A DNA stretch of 64,000 nt. It comes from Phascolarctobacterium sp. Lineage in GTDB: Bacteria > Bacillota > Negativicutes > Acidaminococcales > Acidaminococcaceae. Under the pieces are notes generated by a model, which was not told the DNA's origin, did no database searches, and saw only the letters and a list, made by a program, of their open reading frames with translations. A program made the position numbers and the translations under genes. The DNA lies in assembly GCA_030531205.1 (NCBI GenBank), contig JAUNOC010000002.1, positions 1 through 64,000 of the forward strand, given 5' to 3'. This document shows, in pieces, positions 3,223 to 49,025 of this stretch (position 1 is its first letter; each line of letters opens with the position of its first letter).

Positions 3223-3377
3223 TGAATAAAGAATAATGAATAATTATGGTAAAATGTTCCTGTGATTATAATTAGGTTTCAGGTGTGCAGGGATGTAAGG
3301 CCCCTTGGTGAAGGGGCTCCGCAAAGCGGTGGGGATTGAAAACTGCAAATTTATGAAAACTTTGCCAAGAATTGTGA

Positions 3378-3383
3378 TACAAT
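3378..3383 (+). promoter_or_regulatory. -10 box of the DUF559 gene, probably leaderless
   Basis: TACAAT at 3378-3383 lies exactly 6 nt before the ATG at 3390; no clear -35 and no Shine-Dalgarno sequence. Same geometry as the genes at 1846, 9699 and 21295. Confidence 0.5.
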
Positions 3384-3389
3384 AAAATT

Positions 3390-3773
3390 ATGTCACTTCC
3401 GAGAAATGATAGATTAGTGGAATATTCAGATAAACTGCGTAATTCGCCTACACCATGGGAAAGACGCCTTTGGTATGATTTTTTGCGTAGTTATCCTGTA
3501 AGATTTAATCGTCAGAAGATAATCGGTCATTATATTGTGGATTTTTATTGCCGAAAAGCAAATTTGGTAATTGAATTGGATGGCGGTGGGCATTATATGC
3601 CGGAGCAGCAAGAATATGACAGAAAAAGAAACGAATATCTTGAATTACTAAAACTTAAGGTTTTACGATTCTCCAATCGTGATATTTGTGATAATTTTTA
3701 CGGTGTGTGTACTGTGATTGACAATTATGTGAAATCTGTAGTTCTCAATCCTCAGTCGCAACCACGTTCCTAA
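3390..3773 (+). CDS. DUF559 domain protein, Vsr-like endonuclease fold
   Basis: A 127-aa protein matching the DUF559 family, which is related to very-short-patch-repair (Vsr) endonucleases and the PD-(D/E)XK fold. Visible markers are TPWERRLW (21-28), the central strand pair IVDFYC (49-54) and LVIELDGGGHY (59-69), with probable catalytic residues D51, E62 and D64 and a conserved H68. Family members are small, often solitary genes of unproven function. Here the gene is enclosed by a long inverted repeat, and the C-terminal residues VVLNPQSQPRS are encoded by the inner end of the right arm. A role in moving or maintaining the repeat is an inference, not a known function of the family. Confidence 0.8.
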   Translation: MSLPRNDRLVEYSDKLRNSPTPWERRLWYDFLRSYPVRFNRQKIIGHYIVDFYCRKANLVIELDGGGHYMPEQQEYDRKRNEYLELLKLKVLRFSNRDICDNFYGVCTVIDNYVKSVVLNPQSQPRS

Positions 3774-3906
3774 AAGCGACAGCCCCTTCACCAAGGGGCC
3801 TTAAAGTTCGCATTCGGTGGACTATCTTGCTATAATCACAGGAACATCTAACATTCATTGTGAATTGTGCATTTTGAATTGTGAATTATTACTGGGAGCA
3901 TAAGTT

Positions 3907-6900: not shown

Positions 6901-7344
6901 AGGAATACCAAAAAAGGCGATACAATGGCTAACATTAAATTGGAGGACATCAGTGGCGGTGTAATGGATGTGGTGGTGTTCCCCAAGATCTATCGGGAGG
7001 TAATTTCTTTAATTTATCCTGAGTCCGTTATCGTGGTGGAAGGCAGGATGAGTGTGGATGAGCGGGCGACACAGGTTAATGCTTCCAAGATTATGAAGTT
7101 GACGAAAGTAGCACGGGAACTGCATCTTAAGATTACTCCTGAAAATGAGGCGGCACAGATTATGGCACAATTAAAGGGTTTGTTAAGAAAATATCGTGGT
7201 TCTGACAGAGTATTTTTGCATTTGGTTGAGGGTAAAAAGGTGCTGGCCTGCGATGACTGGTATTGTGTGGACACGACGGCTTATGGGCTGGAAGAGGAAC
7301 TTTTGGGGTTGCTTGGAGAGAGAACGGTGTATATTAAAGAGTAG
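3907..7344 (+). CDS. dnaE: DNA polymerase III subunit alpha (DnaE)
   Basis: An 1145-aa replicative polymerase of normal DnaE length. It opens with the PHP domain (FTHLHVHTQYSLLDGASK, residues 3-20), followed by the C-family polymerase palm with PGRGSAAGS near 356 and the catalytic PDIDTDF near 397; fingers, tandem helix-hairpin-helix region and an OB-fold (about 985-1065) follow. In Firmicutes DnaE usually works with PolC: DnaE extends primers and PolC does bulk synthesis; PolC is not in this window. The ATG at 3907 has a weak GGGAG upstream. It is flanked on both sides by interspersed repeat elements, with no obvious promoter of its own. Confidence 0.97.
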   Translation: MSFTHLHVHTQYSLLDGASKIKDLVSRVKELGMDAIAITDHGVMYGVVDFYQECTKQGVKPIIGCEVYTVNGDMHDKQSSERFHLILLAENETGYHNLMKIVSLAQTEGFYTKPRVDKETLRKYHDGIICLSACMVGELPRLIVAKNMEGARKCVREHIEIFGKENYFLEMQNHFLPEDKTINDGLQQLAKEFDLKIVCTNDLHYVRREDAAAQDVLLCIQTVTTVDDPNRMRFPNDEFYLKSPEEMAALFPDCPEALTNTEEIAKRCNVKLQFGKFLLPEFHPIPDGLDAKGYLRQLCMEALPQRYPNADAKIKERLEYELDIINRMGYAAYFLIVWDFINFCRSQNPPIPVGPGRGSAAGSIVAYLLHITNIEPLHFSLFFERFLNPERVSMPDIDTDFCMRRRDEVLQYVVEKYTPSSVAQIVTFGSLQARAAVRAVGRALGLPYSDVDVVVKLIPKQLDIKLSEALEMSNEFRARYEEDATVKRLIDLSMSVEGLPNNRGTHAAGVIIAPDDLTNYVPLQLEVGQNEFSAGQTFVTQYDKNKVEGLGLLKMDFLGLRTLTAIYDALKMIRRTTGKVIDIDNIPWNDKKTADMLCKGDTFGVFQLESEGMTKLVKDLGPEGFEDLVPLVALYRPGPLGSGMATDFIAGRHGERTAEVLHPLMEPILQDTYGVILYQEQVMQITSVLGGFTLGEADVMRRAMGHKEPEVIQSLTAKFVQGAKKLHNIPEATSEKIFDLLRHFAGYGFNKSHSVAYAFVAYQTAYLKAHYCAQFMAALLNSFDGDGAQITYYISKIRKAGISIEPPDVNISEEKFSAKDDKNIRFGLFGIKSLGIGAIQAILNSRYKVGRFKDLADFCTRVGPKQINRRVLENLIRCGAMDSFGVKRSQLLSIMDKCIEVAIANEEDMLSNQMNLFVSENGMDMDDEIVLPDIPELSPQQMLADEKALLGFYVTGHPLDEYAENLENFIPLENLKDEETYPDGTWIKVAGIITECKVRNTKKGDTMANIKLEDISGGVMDVVVFPKIYREVISLIYPESVIVVEGRMSVDERATQVNASKIMKLTKVARELHLKITPENEAAQIMAQLKGLLRKYRGSDRVFLHLVEGKKVLACDDWYCVDTTAYGLEEELLGLLGERTVYIKE

Positions 7345-7359
7345 GTTTCAGGGAAATGA

Positions 7360-7500
7360 GTAATTAGTAATTAGTAATGAGTAATTATGGTAGGATGTTC
7401 CGGTGATTATAATTAGGTATCAGGTGTGCGGGGCCTTCAAGTTCGCAAAGCGAAAATTGTCCATAATTATTCATTATTCTTTATTAATTATTCATTAGAA
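7360..7500. mobile_element. Short non-autonomous repeat element (MITE-like)
   Basis: About 140 bp between dnaE and the pilin peptidase gene. Left end AATGAGTAATTATGG (7376-7390) is answered by CCATAATTATTCATT on the right (7461-7475), giving terminal inverted repeats. Inside are the core variant ATGTTCCGGTGATTATA (7395-7411), GGTGTGCGGGG, and a TTCGC/GCGAA hairpin module also present at 36.67 and 47.89 kb. No ORF. Confidence 0.65.
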
Positions 7501-28021: not shown

Positions 28022-28400
28022 AATTTTAGGTATCAGGTTTGAGGGGTTAGGTATAATGCGGAATGCGTAATTCGCAATGCGTAATTATGGTAGGATGTTC
28101 CTGTGATTATAATTATGAATTAAGAATGCAGAATTAGGAATGATGGTAAGATGTTCCTGTGATTAGAATTAGGTTTCAGGTGTGCGGGGTTATGTGAACC
28201 CTCGTCCGCCCATAAAGGGGTAGACAGTCCAGTGGACTGTCGCCGAGTAATTTGGGTTTGTCCAGCGAGGTAAAGGACCGTCTAAAGGAACATAGAAAGA
28301 CGGTGGTGGGGTGAGCAATTAGGTTGATACTTTATCTTGGAAAAATGTCAAAGACCAAATAGCAAAGAATAAATATGGTAATATGTTCCGTTGATTAAAA
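28022..28400. mobile_element. Nested interspersed repeat copies, left-arm type
   Basis: Three core copies in a row: ATGTTCCTGTGATTATA at 28095-28111, ATGTTCCTGTGATTAGA at 28151-28167, and a partial ATGTTCCGTTGATTA near 28383, with GCGTAAT- and GAATTAGGAAT-type arrays between. The second copy leads into GTGTGCGGGG and a long GC-rich module (28176-28320, AACCCTCGTCCGCCC ... GGTGGTGGGGTGAGCAATTA) that is shared with 36415-36507. It contains an internal hairpin GACAGTCCAGTGGACTGTC. A matching right arm lies at 28875-28945. No ORF. Confidence 0.6.
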
Positions 28401-28421
28401 CTTTTTTTCGTTGTAGCAGAT

Positions 28422-28475
28422 AGGGAAATTTAGTCATTATCCTACGAAAATGACTAAATTTCCCTGTTTTTATTT
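28422..28475 (+). terminator. Strong 17-bp hairpin with T-rich tail, terminator-like
   Basis: AGGGAAATTTAGTCATT (28422-28438) pairs perfectly with 28449-28465 across a 10-nt loop and is followed by a long T-rich run. It lies 400 nt after the RND gene with no nearer ORF, so it may terminate the efflux transcript or belong to the repeat region. Confidence 0.5.
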
Positions 28476-28532
28476 TTCTTTCGCTTTTTATCCAGCGTTA
28501 AAAAGTGCTTGGAACAGCAAAATCTCATTTCT

Positions 28533-28615
28533 AATCTTACGTAAGATTGAGTAAATCTTACGTAAGATTAAAAACCACTTTTCATGCTTTTAACTGCGTT
28601 TTTATGACGAGTTAG
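28533..28615. repeat. Palindrome pair AATCTTACGTAAGATT with conserved tail
   Basis: The 16-bp perfect palindrome AATCTTACGTAAGATT occurs at 28533-28548 and again at 28554-28569, 5 nt apart. The following tail (28570-28615: AAAACCACTTTTCATGC, then TGCGTTTTTATGACG) matches 48659-48700, where another palindrome pair stands, so pair plus tail form a repeat unit with variable palindrome centres. Confidence 0.7.
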
Positions 28616-28663
28616 AATAAAAAAGCGTCAAAAAGTAAAACTGGAAAAATTTTCCGTGAGTGT

Positions 28664-28703
28664 CAATCTCATATTGAGATTGTTCTAATCTCAATATGAG
28701 ATT
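28664..28703. repeat. Palindrome pair CAATCTCATATTGAGATTG and its reverse complement
   Basis: CAATCTCATATTGAGATTG (28664-28682), a 4-nt gap, then AATCTCAATATGAGATTG (28687-28704). Each has perfect 7-8 bp arms with a 3-nt centre, and the second copy is the reverse complement of the first. Arms follow the AATCT...AGATT rule of the family. Confidence 0.7.
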
Positions 28704-28719
28704 GGACGTTAAAAAAATT

Positions 28720-28748
28720 AATTAGCACGTAAGTGCTAATTTTGTTTT
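28720..28748 (+). repeat. AATTAGCAC hairpin in the palindrome cluster
   Basis: AATTAGCAC (28720-28728), GTAA loop, GTGCTAATT (28733-28741) followed by TTGTTTT; could act as a weak terminator. It lies between two AATCT-type palindrome pairs. Confidence 0.5.
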
Positions 28749-28794
28749 CTGATTGAAATCATAAAAATTATTTTGTGGCGAAGGACGAAGGTGA

Positions 28795-28832
28795 AATCTT
28801 ATATAAGAGTTGGTGAGGTCTTATATAAGATT
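28795..28832. repeat. Palindrome pair with TCTTATATAAGA core
   Basis: AATCTTATATAAGA (28795-28808) and TCTTATATAAGATT (28819-28832) share a perfect 12-bp palindrome. Together they form one larger inverted repeat. Third AATCT...AGATT pair within 300 nt. Confidence 0.65.
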
Positions 28833-28874
28833 GAGCTTATGCCGAAAGAAAAATCGGCAAAAGCATTCAAAATG

Positions 28875-28950
28875 TGAAGTTCTCAATCCCCAGTCAGCCC
28901 TTATGTTCCTATTGCAGACAGCCCCTTCACCAAGGGGTCTTATTAGTTTC
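28875..28950. repeat. Right-arm copy of the interspersed element
   Basis: GTTCTCAATCCCCAGTC (28879-28895), then ACAGCCCCTTCACCAAGGGG (28918-28937): the same order as the right arm of the DUF559 element (3740-3800) and of the copy at 48936-49007. Here there is no DUF559 gene to its left; the 28.4-28.87 kb interval holds only palindromes. Confidence 0.65.
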
Positions 28951-36355: not shown

Positions 36356-36745
36356 TTAGTAATTAGTAATGAGAAATGACGGTAAGCTGTTCCAGTGATT
36401 ATATTTCGGGGTTTTAGGTGTGCGGGGTTATGCGAACCCTCGTCCGCCCATAAAGGGGCGGGGGACCGCCTACGGGAGCGTGTTGGCGGTGGTGGGGTGA
36501 GCAATTATGCTGTCGCTAATGAAAAGATAAAAACTTAAAACTTAAAGTTTATGAATGCTTCGCATAATGCAAAAACACCCGTCTGCCCCTGTGTTCCTGT
36601 TGGCAGCCACCCTCTTTAGAAAGAGGGAAAAAAGTTGGCATAGTGCGGACTCTGTAATTATAATCGGGAATTTTCGCAAAGCGAAAATTGTCCATAATTA
36701 TTCATTATTCATTGAAAAAAAGTTCCTGTGATTGTAATTAGTTTT
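36356..36745. mobile_element. Complete-looking non-autonomous repeat element
   Basis: This 0.4-kb gene-free interval is a full element without a gene. Left arm: AT-rich array, degenerate core CTGTTCCAGTGATTATA (36388-36404), GTGTGCGGGG, and the GC-rich CCCTCGTCCGCCC...GGTGGGGTGAGCAATTA module (36427-36507). Right arm: GTCTGCCCCTGTGTTCCTG (36582-36600), a CCCTCTTTAGAAAGAGGG hairpin (36611-36628), CATAGTGCGGACT, the TTTTCGC/GCGAAAA hairpin (36671-36687) and CCATAATTATTCATT. A second core, GTTCCTGTGATTGTAATTAG, starts at 36721 just before the ABC transporter gene. No ORF of note. Confidence 0.65.
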
Positions 36746-43004: not shown

Positions 43005-43135
43005 CAGTGATGAGGGAAGATAATGCGTAATGCGTAATTAGCAATGCGTAATTGAGGTAATATGCTCCTGTGATTATAGCAGGATAGTAAGCATAGAGCG
43101 GACTTTGCTATTTTAATCCGAGGAACTTCTTAACG
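43005..43135. repeat. Interspersed repeat copy between tRNAs and rpmG
   Basis: Three TGCGTAAT-type units, core variant ATGCTCCTGTGATTATA (43062-43078), then GCAGGATAGTAAGCATAGAGCGGAC, the second flank variant also seen at 12.95 and 48.83 kb. No ORF. Confidence 0.6.
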
Positions 43136-43173
43136 CAATTTTGAGTTTTCAACTTTTAATTTTTAATTTTTTC

Positions 43174-48744: not shown

Positions 48745-49025
48745 TAATGAGTAATTAGTAATGAGTAATTTTAGAATAAATGTCAAAGAACAAAGAGCAA
48801 AGAACAAATGTGGTAATATGTTCCTGTGATTATAGTAGGAAAGTTAGCATAGTGCGAACCTTGCCCTCTTGGTGAAGAGGGTGGCTTGCCTAAAGGAACA
48901 AAGAAAGTCAAGACGGGTGATTGTACACTTCGCAGTTCTCAATTCTCAGTCGCCCACCGAATAAACCTATCGGCGACAGCCCCTTCACCAAGGGGCCTTA
49001 AGTTCGCATTAAGCGGACTTATTTT
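48745..49025. mobile_element. Non-autonomous copy of the DUF559-type element
   Basis: Gene-free interval before mraZ. Left arm: AT-rich array, core ATGTTCCTGTGATTATA (48819-48835), GTAGGAAAGTTAGCATAGTGCG, and CCCTCTTGGTGAAGAGGG (48864-48881). Right arm: GTTCTCAATTCTCAGTCGC (48933-48951), CGACAGCCCCTTCACCAAGG (48972-48991), TTAAGTTCGCATT, as in the DUF559 element at 3740-3812. The space between the arms is only about 50 nt, so the gene is missing. A small ORF here is an artefact of the repeat. Confidence 0.65.

Follow-up and report, generated by a model that had tools for sequence, protein, structure and literature searches.

A candidate mobile element composed of a DUF559 nuclease gene and inverted ends carrying an intrastrand triplex motif

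RESULTS AND DISCUSSION

A DUF559 gene between two families of inverted repeats

The DNA analyzed here (the window) is a 64,000-nt stretch of a Phascolarctobacterium sp. contig (JAUNOC010000002.1, positions 1 to 64,000, assembly GCA_030531205.1). Close to its start lies a DUF559 nuclease gene flanked by a perfect 23-nt inverted repeat (3296-3318/3781-3803) and by a second inverted repeat of 57 nt with 70% matching (3214-3270/3831-3887), in agreement with a preliminary description of this DNA, made from the sequence alone, in which the gene was said to be enclosed by an inverted repeat. That description also held that the gene is alone between the arms and that its final codons enter the right arm, and both observations were borne out (Table 1). 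The multi-module arms that it proposed are a real repeat but a mixture of two families: the ends of the element itself, with P1 hairpins at 3299 and 3800, and a separate outer repeat, OP, to which the outer modules belong and which is not part of the ends. As had also been noted, there is no transposase of a known kind: the element holds neither a DDE nor any other known transposase, DUF559 being its sole gene, and the Y1/RAYT transposase (PF01797) is absent from the whole genome (G000). An Rfam scan of the window returned no relevant family, and PADLOC gave weak partial matches and nothing stronger.

Table 1. Features of the DUF559 element, its derivatives, and the outer repeat in the window
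Feature	Position	Strand	Details and basis
Left half of OP (not the element's end)	3248..3270	+	13 motif matches vs 0.15 expected
Whole element, P1 to P1	3299..3800	+	502 bp; limits from comparison with other copies in the genome
Left end unit	3299..3338	+	P1 3299-3317, H2 3319-3329, tail TGGGGATTG 3330-3338; triplex match 6/6; folding z -3.6
DUF559 (EDxHD/Vsr-like PD-(D/E)XK) nuclease gene	3390..3773	+	127 aa; PF04480 E=2.6e-26; stop at 3773
Right end unit	3746..3800	-	P1, H2 with GGAAC in loop, tail TGAGGATTG; triplex match 5/6; folding z -4.0
P0 and right half of OP	3803..3853	-	Sequence; beside 14/15 elements or ends examined in the genome
Single right end unit	28884..28938	-	One-ended derivative
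Single end unit, different P1 type	36438..36500	+	Tail TGGTGGGG; read by eye in the sequence
Nearly whole, unoccupied OP copy	43056..43138	+	Palindrome weak in folding, z -0.9
Gene-less two-ended derivative	48863..48995	+	133 bp

The window contains 13 occurrences of the OP motif, ATGTTCCTGTGATTATA, compared with 0.15 expected; together with AT heptamer arrays, the motif makes up one half of OP, an imperfect palindrome of ~80 bp whose layout, assembled by eye from the copies, is roughly GGTAAAATGTTCCTGTGATTATA-GCAGGAAAGTTCGC..GCGAACTTTCCTGC-TATAATCACAGGAACATTTTACC. Solo halves lie at 7.4, 12.9, 28.1, 36.4, 36.7, 38.6, and 47.9 kb; the left half is mostly oriented along the direction of the genes. 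The elements lie within or next to OP copies: among the 15 elements or ends examined in the genome, 14 have an OP motif with at most 4 mismatches no more than 120 bp away, compared with 0.3% of shuffled flanks, the only exception being the element L012. The outer ATGTTCC module was considered as the terminal repeat of the element and rejected, since copies of it exist without an element and L012 lacks it. Because L012 is without OP, this repeat is best read as a preferred neighborhood or target of the elements and not as their end.

The ends follow a triplex code

Read inward, an end of the Firmicutes type consists of a pyrimidine-purine hairpin (P1), a hairpin of variable sequence (H2), and a tail, as in GCTCCCTCTGACGAGGGAGCTGTCAGCGAAGCTGACTGAGGGAG. 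The tail changes along with the purine arm of P1 (arm/tail pairs AGGGGAG/GAGGGGT, AAGGGAGG/GGAGGGATT, GGGAGAG/GAGAGGG, and AAAGAGGG/GGGTGATT). We scored this relation by a purine-motif triplex code, in which the tail mirrors the P1 purine arm, with G over G and A or T over A, in a sample of 89 arms found without use of the tail. The full tail matched by the triplex rule in 62% of the arms, by strict mirror identity in 34%, as a direct repeat in 11%, and as a Watson-Crick complement in 0%, so that Watson-Crick or direct-repeat pairing was rejected as the reason for the tail in favor of a mirror or triplex relation. When tails were exchanged between families, the score was 0.70, as against 0.88 for a family's own tails. 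Both ends of the window element obey the code at all or nearly all positions and, as single-stranded DNA, fold better than shuffled sequences (Table 1). Since the tails track the P1 purine arm by the triplex code, we read the covariation as that of a putative intrastrand triplex whose second loop contains H2. Both ends and the code are conserved across many genera. The core of OP, ATGTTCCT, recurs within the H2 loops of DUF559 elements.

The DUF559 protein

Residues E24, D51, E62, D64, H68, and D77 are invariant in an alignment of 35 sequences. The AlphaFold2 model of the window protein (pLDDT, 89.9) found its best solved folds in 3hrl (Neisseria gonorrhoeae NGO0050) and in 3r3p, the catalytic domain of I-Bth0305I, the latter with an E value of 1.6e-4 and a TM-score of 0.81 by target (sequence profile, 0.005); the Vsr structures 1cw0 and 1vsr came next, with weaker E values. 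On this model, the DUF559 protein is predicted to fold like the catalytic domain of the homing endonuclease I-Bth0305I. YcjD, its E. coli counterpart, had earlier been placed in the PD-(D/E)XK superfamily (PMC1189080).

Copies with and without the gene in one genome

The Phascolarctobacterium genome (1.33 Mb, 98.8% complete) contains eight DUF559 elements of four sequence families, including that of the window, each framed by its own inverted ends; the copies are intergenic. L012 and L013 look identical across the 539-bp element and lie 2.4 kb apart in different flanks, L009 to L011 are three copies of 561 bp each, and L015/L016 are 545-bp copies. Both ends are retained without the gene in copies of 132 to 145 bp (L001, L002, L006, L007, and window positions 48863-48995), and single ends occur at L003 to L005 and at 28.9 kb of the window. 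Several of the gene-less copies listed in the preliminary description can thus be kept, namely, the two-ended derivative at 48863-48995 and the single or composite end units at 28.2, 28.9, and 36.4 kb, whereas those at 7.4, 12.9, 38.6, 43.0, and 47.9 kb are OP only. The layout suggested there, which resembles that of REP elements and their RAYT transposases, is likewise supported: a Vsr-like nuclease is the only gene, the ends are palindromic, and gene-less derivatives exist.

Another repeat, of ~300 to 450 bp, is found at window positions 28383-28870 and at L009:1088-1406 and L011:1935-2240. Its AT-rich outer parts are conserved, while its paired, identical inner palindromes vary by copy (GTTACGTAAC, AATCTTACGTAAGATT, and GTCGACATT); relatives of it are present in the same-genus genomes G001 and G002. 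These two genomes were rejected as donors of empty sites for the DUF559 elements, since the assemblies are fragmented, the matches are mostly to repeats, and synteny is broken.

Ends and DUF559 genes occur together

One scan of genome contigs gave 80 DUF559 loci, mostly from Clostridia. An inverted arm match score of at least 14 was reached by 65% of the 71 loci with enough flank, compared with 1.2% of 86 neighboring ORFs from the same loci, which served as controls. Recognizable arms are missing at about a third of the DUF559 loci, some of which perhaps represent other subfamilies or have arms outside the stretch examined; the near-identical copies L021/L038 of genome G004 have no visible P1 arms. 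At G008:C1:2293811-2315962 (L142), a 22-kb stretch of a complete genome contains five DUF559 copies, of which two are broken. Gut phage and viral contigs (L177, L178, L126, and L128) also have DUF559 genes flanked by P1-type arms, and therefore phages or prophages may be vehicles of the elements.

Co-occurrence was assessed in 247 genomes, one per species, from the order of the clostridial carrier G061. The right-end pattern GGAGCTGTC-N4-24-GACTGAGG, derived from arms around DUF559 genes and searched exactly, was present in 61 genomes, as was a strong DUF559 match (61/247); 44 genomes had both (odds ratio, 25.7; P=5e-21; shared ancestry uncorrected). The association was unchanged when two genomes first met through DUF559 were removed, and the reversed pattern, used as a control, matched twice in total. 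With ancestry again uncorrected, Y1_Tnp (PF01797) was weakly associated with the ends (odds ratio, 2.4), and the DUF559 odds ratio was 26 in Y1-negative and 22 in Y1-positive genomes. Y1 transposases do not explain the co-occurrence of ends and DUF559. Y1/RAYT was rejected as the mover both for the Phascolarctobacterium genome, which lacks PF01797, and as a general explanation, its association being weak elsewhere. Ends without a strong DUF559 match were found in 17 genomes, of which at least G145 and G251 keep DUF559 fragments.

From these sequence comparisons we infer that DUF559 would be the catalyst acting on the triplex-type ends. It could also be cargo: an unseen enzyme of the host or the element would move the ends in trans, and DUF559 would have a different role, e.g., in defense or repair. 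The DUF559 genes without arms and the few genomes that have ends and no DUF559 would suit this alternative. We nevertheless consider it improbable, given that DUF559 is the sole gene of the element in every family seen, that Y1_Tnp is absent from the Phascolarctobacterium genome and not needed elsewhere, and that co-occurrence with the ends is specific to DUF559 when compared with Y1_Tnp.

Empty sites in clostridial relatives

In the clostridial genome G061, a 494-bp DUF559 element lies at 6964-7457 of locus L207, and the corresponding intergene of a sister species, G319 (L240), is without the element. The flanks in G061, TTTACTGATTTGTCT on the left and CAATTTCAATATTATACAAATCCC on the right, correspond to TTTACTAATTTGACT and TAATTTTAATATTATAAAAATCCC in G319. 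A third species, G313 (L239), has a 489-bp element at a different point of this region, with the junctions CATTTTATAAATCACCTT and ACTCATTTATCACCTTAATTTC on its two sides as against CATTTTAAATCACCTTAATTTC in G319. The target sites of the two insertions differ: judged from its junctions, the one in G313 probably carries an imperfect target duplication of ~13 to 18 bp, whereas at the one in G061 about 32 bp of the G319 sequence is missing, a loss with no duplication. More distant relatives, e.g., G360 and G316, have no element in the region. The two insertions are apparently independent, and since both sites are empty in G319, mobility of the element is well supported.

The earlier proposal of a mobile element with palindromic ends is thus sustained by multiple loci, gene-less derivatives, and empty sites; the copies occupy many loci and not a fixed one, and arms of this kind are seen again in relatives. 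The opposite reading, in which a fixed nuclease gene is accompanied by regulatory or terminator hairpins, was already disfavored. P1 hairpins could serve as terminators, and E. coli ycjD does sit at one fixed locus, but several copies per genome in differing contexts, together with the gene-less copies and empty sites, make this reading hardly credible.

The main rival to transposition is a homing-like spread, in which DUF559 would cut an unoccupied target, e.g., the center of OP, and double-strand-break repair by the host would copy the element in from an occupied site, the ends being by-products or cleavage signals. The nearest enzymatic relative by fold is indeed the homing endonuclease I-Bth0305I, and the OP repeats that adjoin nearly all elements or ends examined would supply homology. 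However, L012 lacks the OP motif, no long repeat is seen in the clostridial sequences that flank the empty site, and the conservation of both ends and of the triplex code over many genera would be unneeded by homing alone. We regard this route as unlikely, though a serious contender, and favor transposition from the ends.

DUF559 elements outside the Firmicutes and the BoxC/PIT/TM repeats

In E. coli, the DUF559 gene is ycjD, located between sapF and fabI; a near search detected it in 3366 of 5426 genomes. The repeat next to it is CCCCTCACCCTAACCCTCTCCCCAGAGGGGCGAGGGG, which we identify as the published BoxC, PIT, or TM repeat by matching it to the description in PMC4666352. These repeats, known in E. 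coli since the 1990s, occur in >260 genomes and, as described in that 2015 paper, have a 37-nt consensus with a T-T-A or C-C-G second loop and 23 copies in MG1655; triplex formation by the E. coli motif has been studied by CD/NMR (PMC4666352). The paper also states that paired motifs always combine type A with type B and that transposase or integrase remnants were never found near the repeats (PMC4666352). The pairing of the two types is how left and right ends would behave.

A distant search located the ycjD-side end 92,500 times across 5395 E. coli genomes, with a median of 19. Upstream of ycjD there is no BoxC-type repeat, and downstream there are one partial and one whole repeat; the E. 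coli element may therefore be a degraded copy. O157 strains keep ~15 BoxC copies, with ycjD absent from its usual place, and in the ycjD-negative strains examined this place is taken by an RND efflux operon, which according to PMC12817139 is EefABC. The BoxC loci ypfG-tkt and cpxA-yiiM are replaced by BIMEs in other strains and are not clean empty sites. With the efflux operon at one place and BIMEs at the two BoxC loci, E. coli was rejected as a source of empty sites. At cpxA-yiiM, strain S1-JOR-02-A (L197) has a gene-less, two-ended BoxC element of ~125 to 150 bp; this allele is matched over most of its length in 156 of 5395 E. coli genomes, and the others examined carry BIMEs.

DUF559 genes lie between such repeats in other phyla as well. 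In Deinococcus psychrotolerans (L259), the gene is located between paaD and paaZ and has a 56-nt, near-perfect inverted arm pair; Sphingomonas (L258) and Synechocystis (L181) have DUF559 genes between BoxC-type repeats. Plasmid pPg_02 of Pseudanabaena galeata (L256) contains a DUF559 element whose triplex arms are nested. It is inserted in frame in a DNA methyltransferase gene, and the arms are therefore read as protein (DUF559 occupies residues 235-336, and the methyltransferase domain begins at 388). Other Pseudanabaena plasmids have both ends within about 100 bp, and we read these pairs as probable gene-less versions. In these non-Firmicutes phyla, the motif is directed outward from the gene, and in Firmicutes it is directed the opposite way. 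The short second loop of BoxC (TTA or CCG in E. coli) is present in the copies from Deinococcus and cyanobacteria; in Firmicutes ends, the H2 hairpin occupies this position. The DUF559 element system would be the source from which BoxC/PIT/TM repeats in E. coli, in cyanobacteria, and elsewhere derive.

In the TM literature, a replication-linked instability without mobility is proposed (PMC4666352). The repeats might be passive, amplified by replication slippage, template switching, or recombination, with DUF559 sometimes caught between them. Tandem arrays of ends (e.g., G061:C6:27.3-28.2 kb) and the two E. coli loci where the repeat replaces a BIME and not an empty site would suit such a process. 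It is very improbable in view of the element-sized, gene-bearing copies in unrelated flanks, the empty sites, the in-frame insertion in a methylase gene, and the excess of arms at DUF559 loci (65%, compared with 1.2% of neighbors). In one such array (G061:C6:27327-28230; L206), right- and left-end units alternate as mini-elements with a period of about 450 bp.

Proposed mechanism

We observed that elements lie at several loci and have gene-less derivatives, that ends and gene occur together, that the tails covary with P1 by the triplex code, and that a sister species has empty sites. On balance, we lean toward an autonomous mobile element whose sole gene is the DUF559 nuclease and whose inverted ends carry the intrastrand triplex motif, with the following mechanism. 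The ends would become single-stranded during replication, repair, or transcription, and P1 and the tail would then fold, the tail acting as the third strand. The folded end would be recognized by the DUF559 protein, whether encoded by that element or by a different copy, and the protein would cut at the ends or close to them. A strand released or copied in this way would be joined to a cleaved target site, in many cases one adjacent to a further palindromic repeat, and repair by the host would then finish the insertion and produce a short duplication of the target. Gene-less copies and single ends would either move in trans, as REPs do with RAYTs, or be remnants of partial events.

For a broader proposal, we see the case as evenly poised: DUF559/YcjD proteins would be the mobility enzymes of a widespread class of transposable elements with ends recognized as intrastrand triplexes, and BoxC/PIT/TM repeats, in E. 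coli as in Neisseria and cyanobacteria, would be nonautonomous descendants of these elements. Our search of the open-access literature found no description of a DUF559 mobile element, and as far as that literature shows, the class is new. If the proposal is true, it would provide a function for a large Pfam family of unknown function and an unusual natural example of a DNA triplex code under selection, and the elements would constitute a mobile family distinguished by its triplex-type ends together with a stand-alone EDxHD nuclease.

Comparison with known systems

Like REP/RAYT systems (Y1/TnpA-REP), the DUF559 elements are intergenic, terminate in short palindromes, and combine a single small gene with numerous gene-less copies, and in the Phascolarctobacterium genome the gene is framed by palindromes that have gene-less copies elsewhere. 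They differ in that this genome has no Y1 (HUH) transposase, the enzyme has a PD-(D/E)XK-like fold, and the ends bear a triplex-type tail, with no GTAG/CGTC-type guide noticed when the arms were viewed. With MITEs and insertion sequences they share inverted ends, a small, internally deleted form, and a possible target duplication; however, each end is a hairpin with a mirror tail, and the partner is a DUF559 nuclease and not a DDE transposase.

The EDxHD/Vsr-like homing endonucleases (I-Bth0305I, 3r3p) have the same nuclease fold and the invariant E, D, H, and D residues, but the DUF559 gene lies in no intron or intein and is accompanied by structured inverted ends and gene-less derivatives. 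The in-frame Pseudanabaena copy has triplex arms and not intein ends. The mismatch-nicking endonuclease Vsr is of the same fold class (1cw0, 1vsr; PMC1189080), yet the similarity is weak, and the DUF559 gene is unlinked to a Dcm-type methylase and lies within a mobile element.

A close parallel is offered by BoxC/PIT/TM repeats, known from E. coli, cyanobacteria, and Neisseria, which likewise consist of a hairpin and a mirror purine tail and are intergenic, with inverted pairs and two end types (PMC4666352); a BoxC-type repeat, moreover, adjoins ycjD. They differ from the Firmicutes ends, which have a hairpin as the second loop and the opposite orientation to the gene, and they have been presented as gene-less repeats without a mobility enzyme (PMC4666352). 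The DUF559 element looks like the missing mover of the E. coli repeat, and a tie between BoxC/PIT/TM and a specific nuclease that has a solved relative would make the origin of these repeats testable in a laboratory strain of E. coli.
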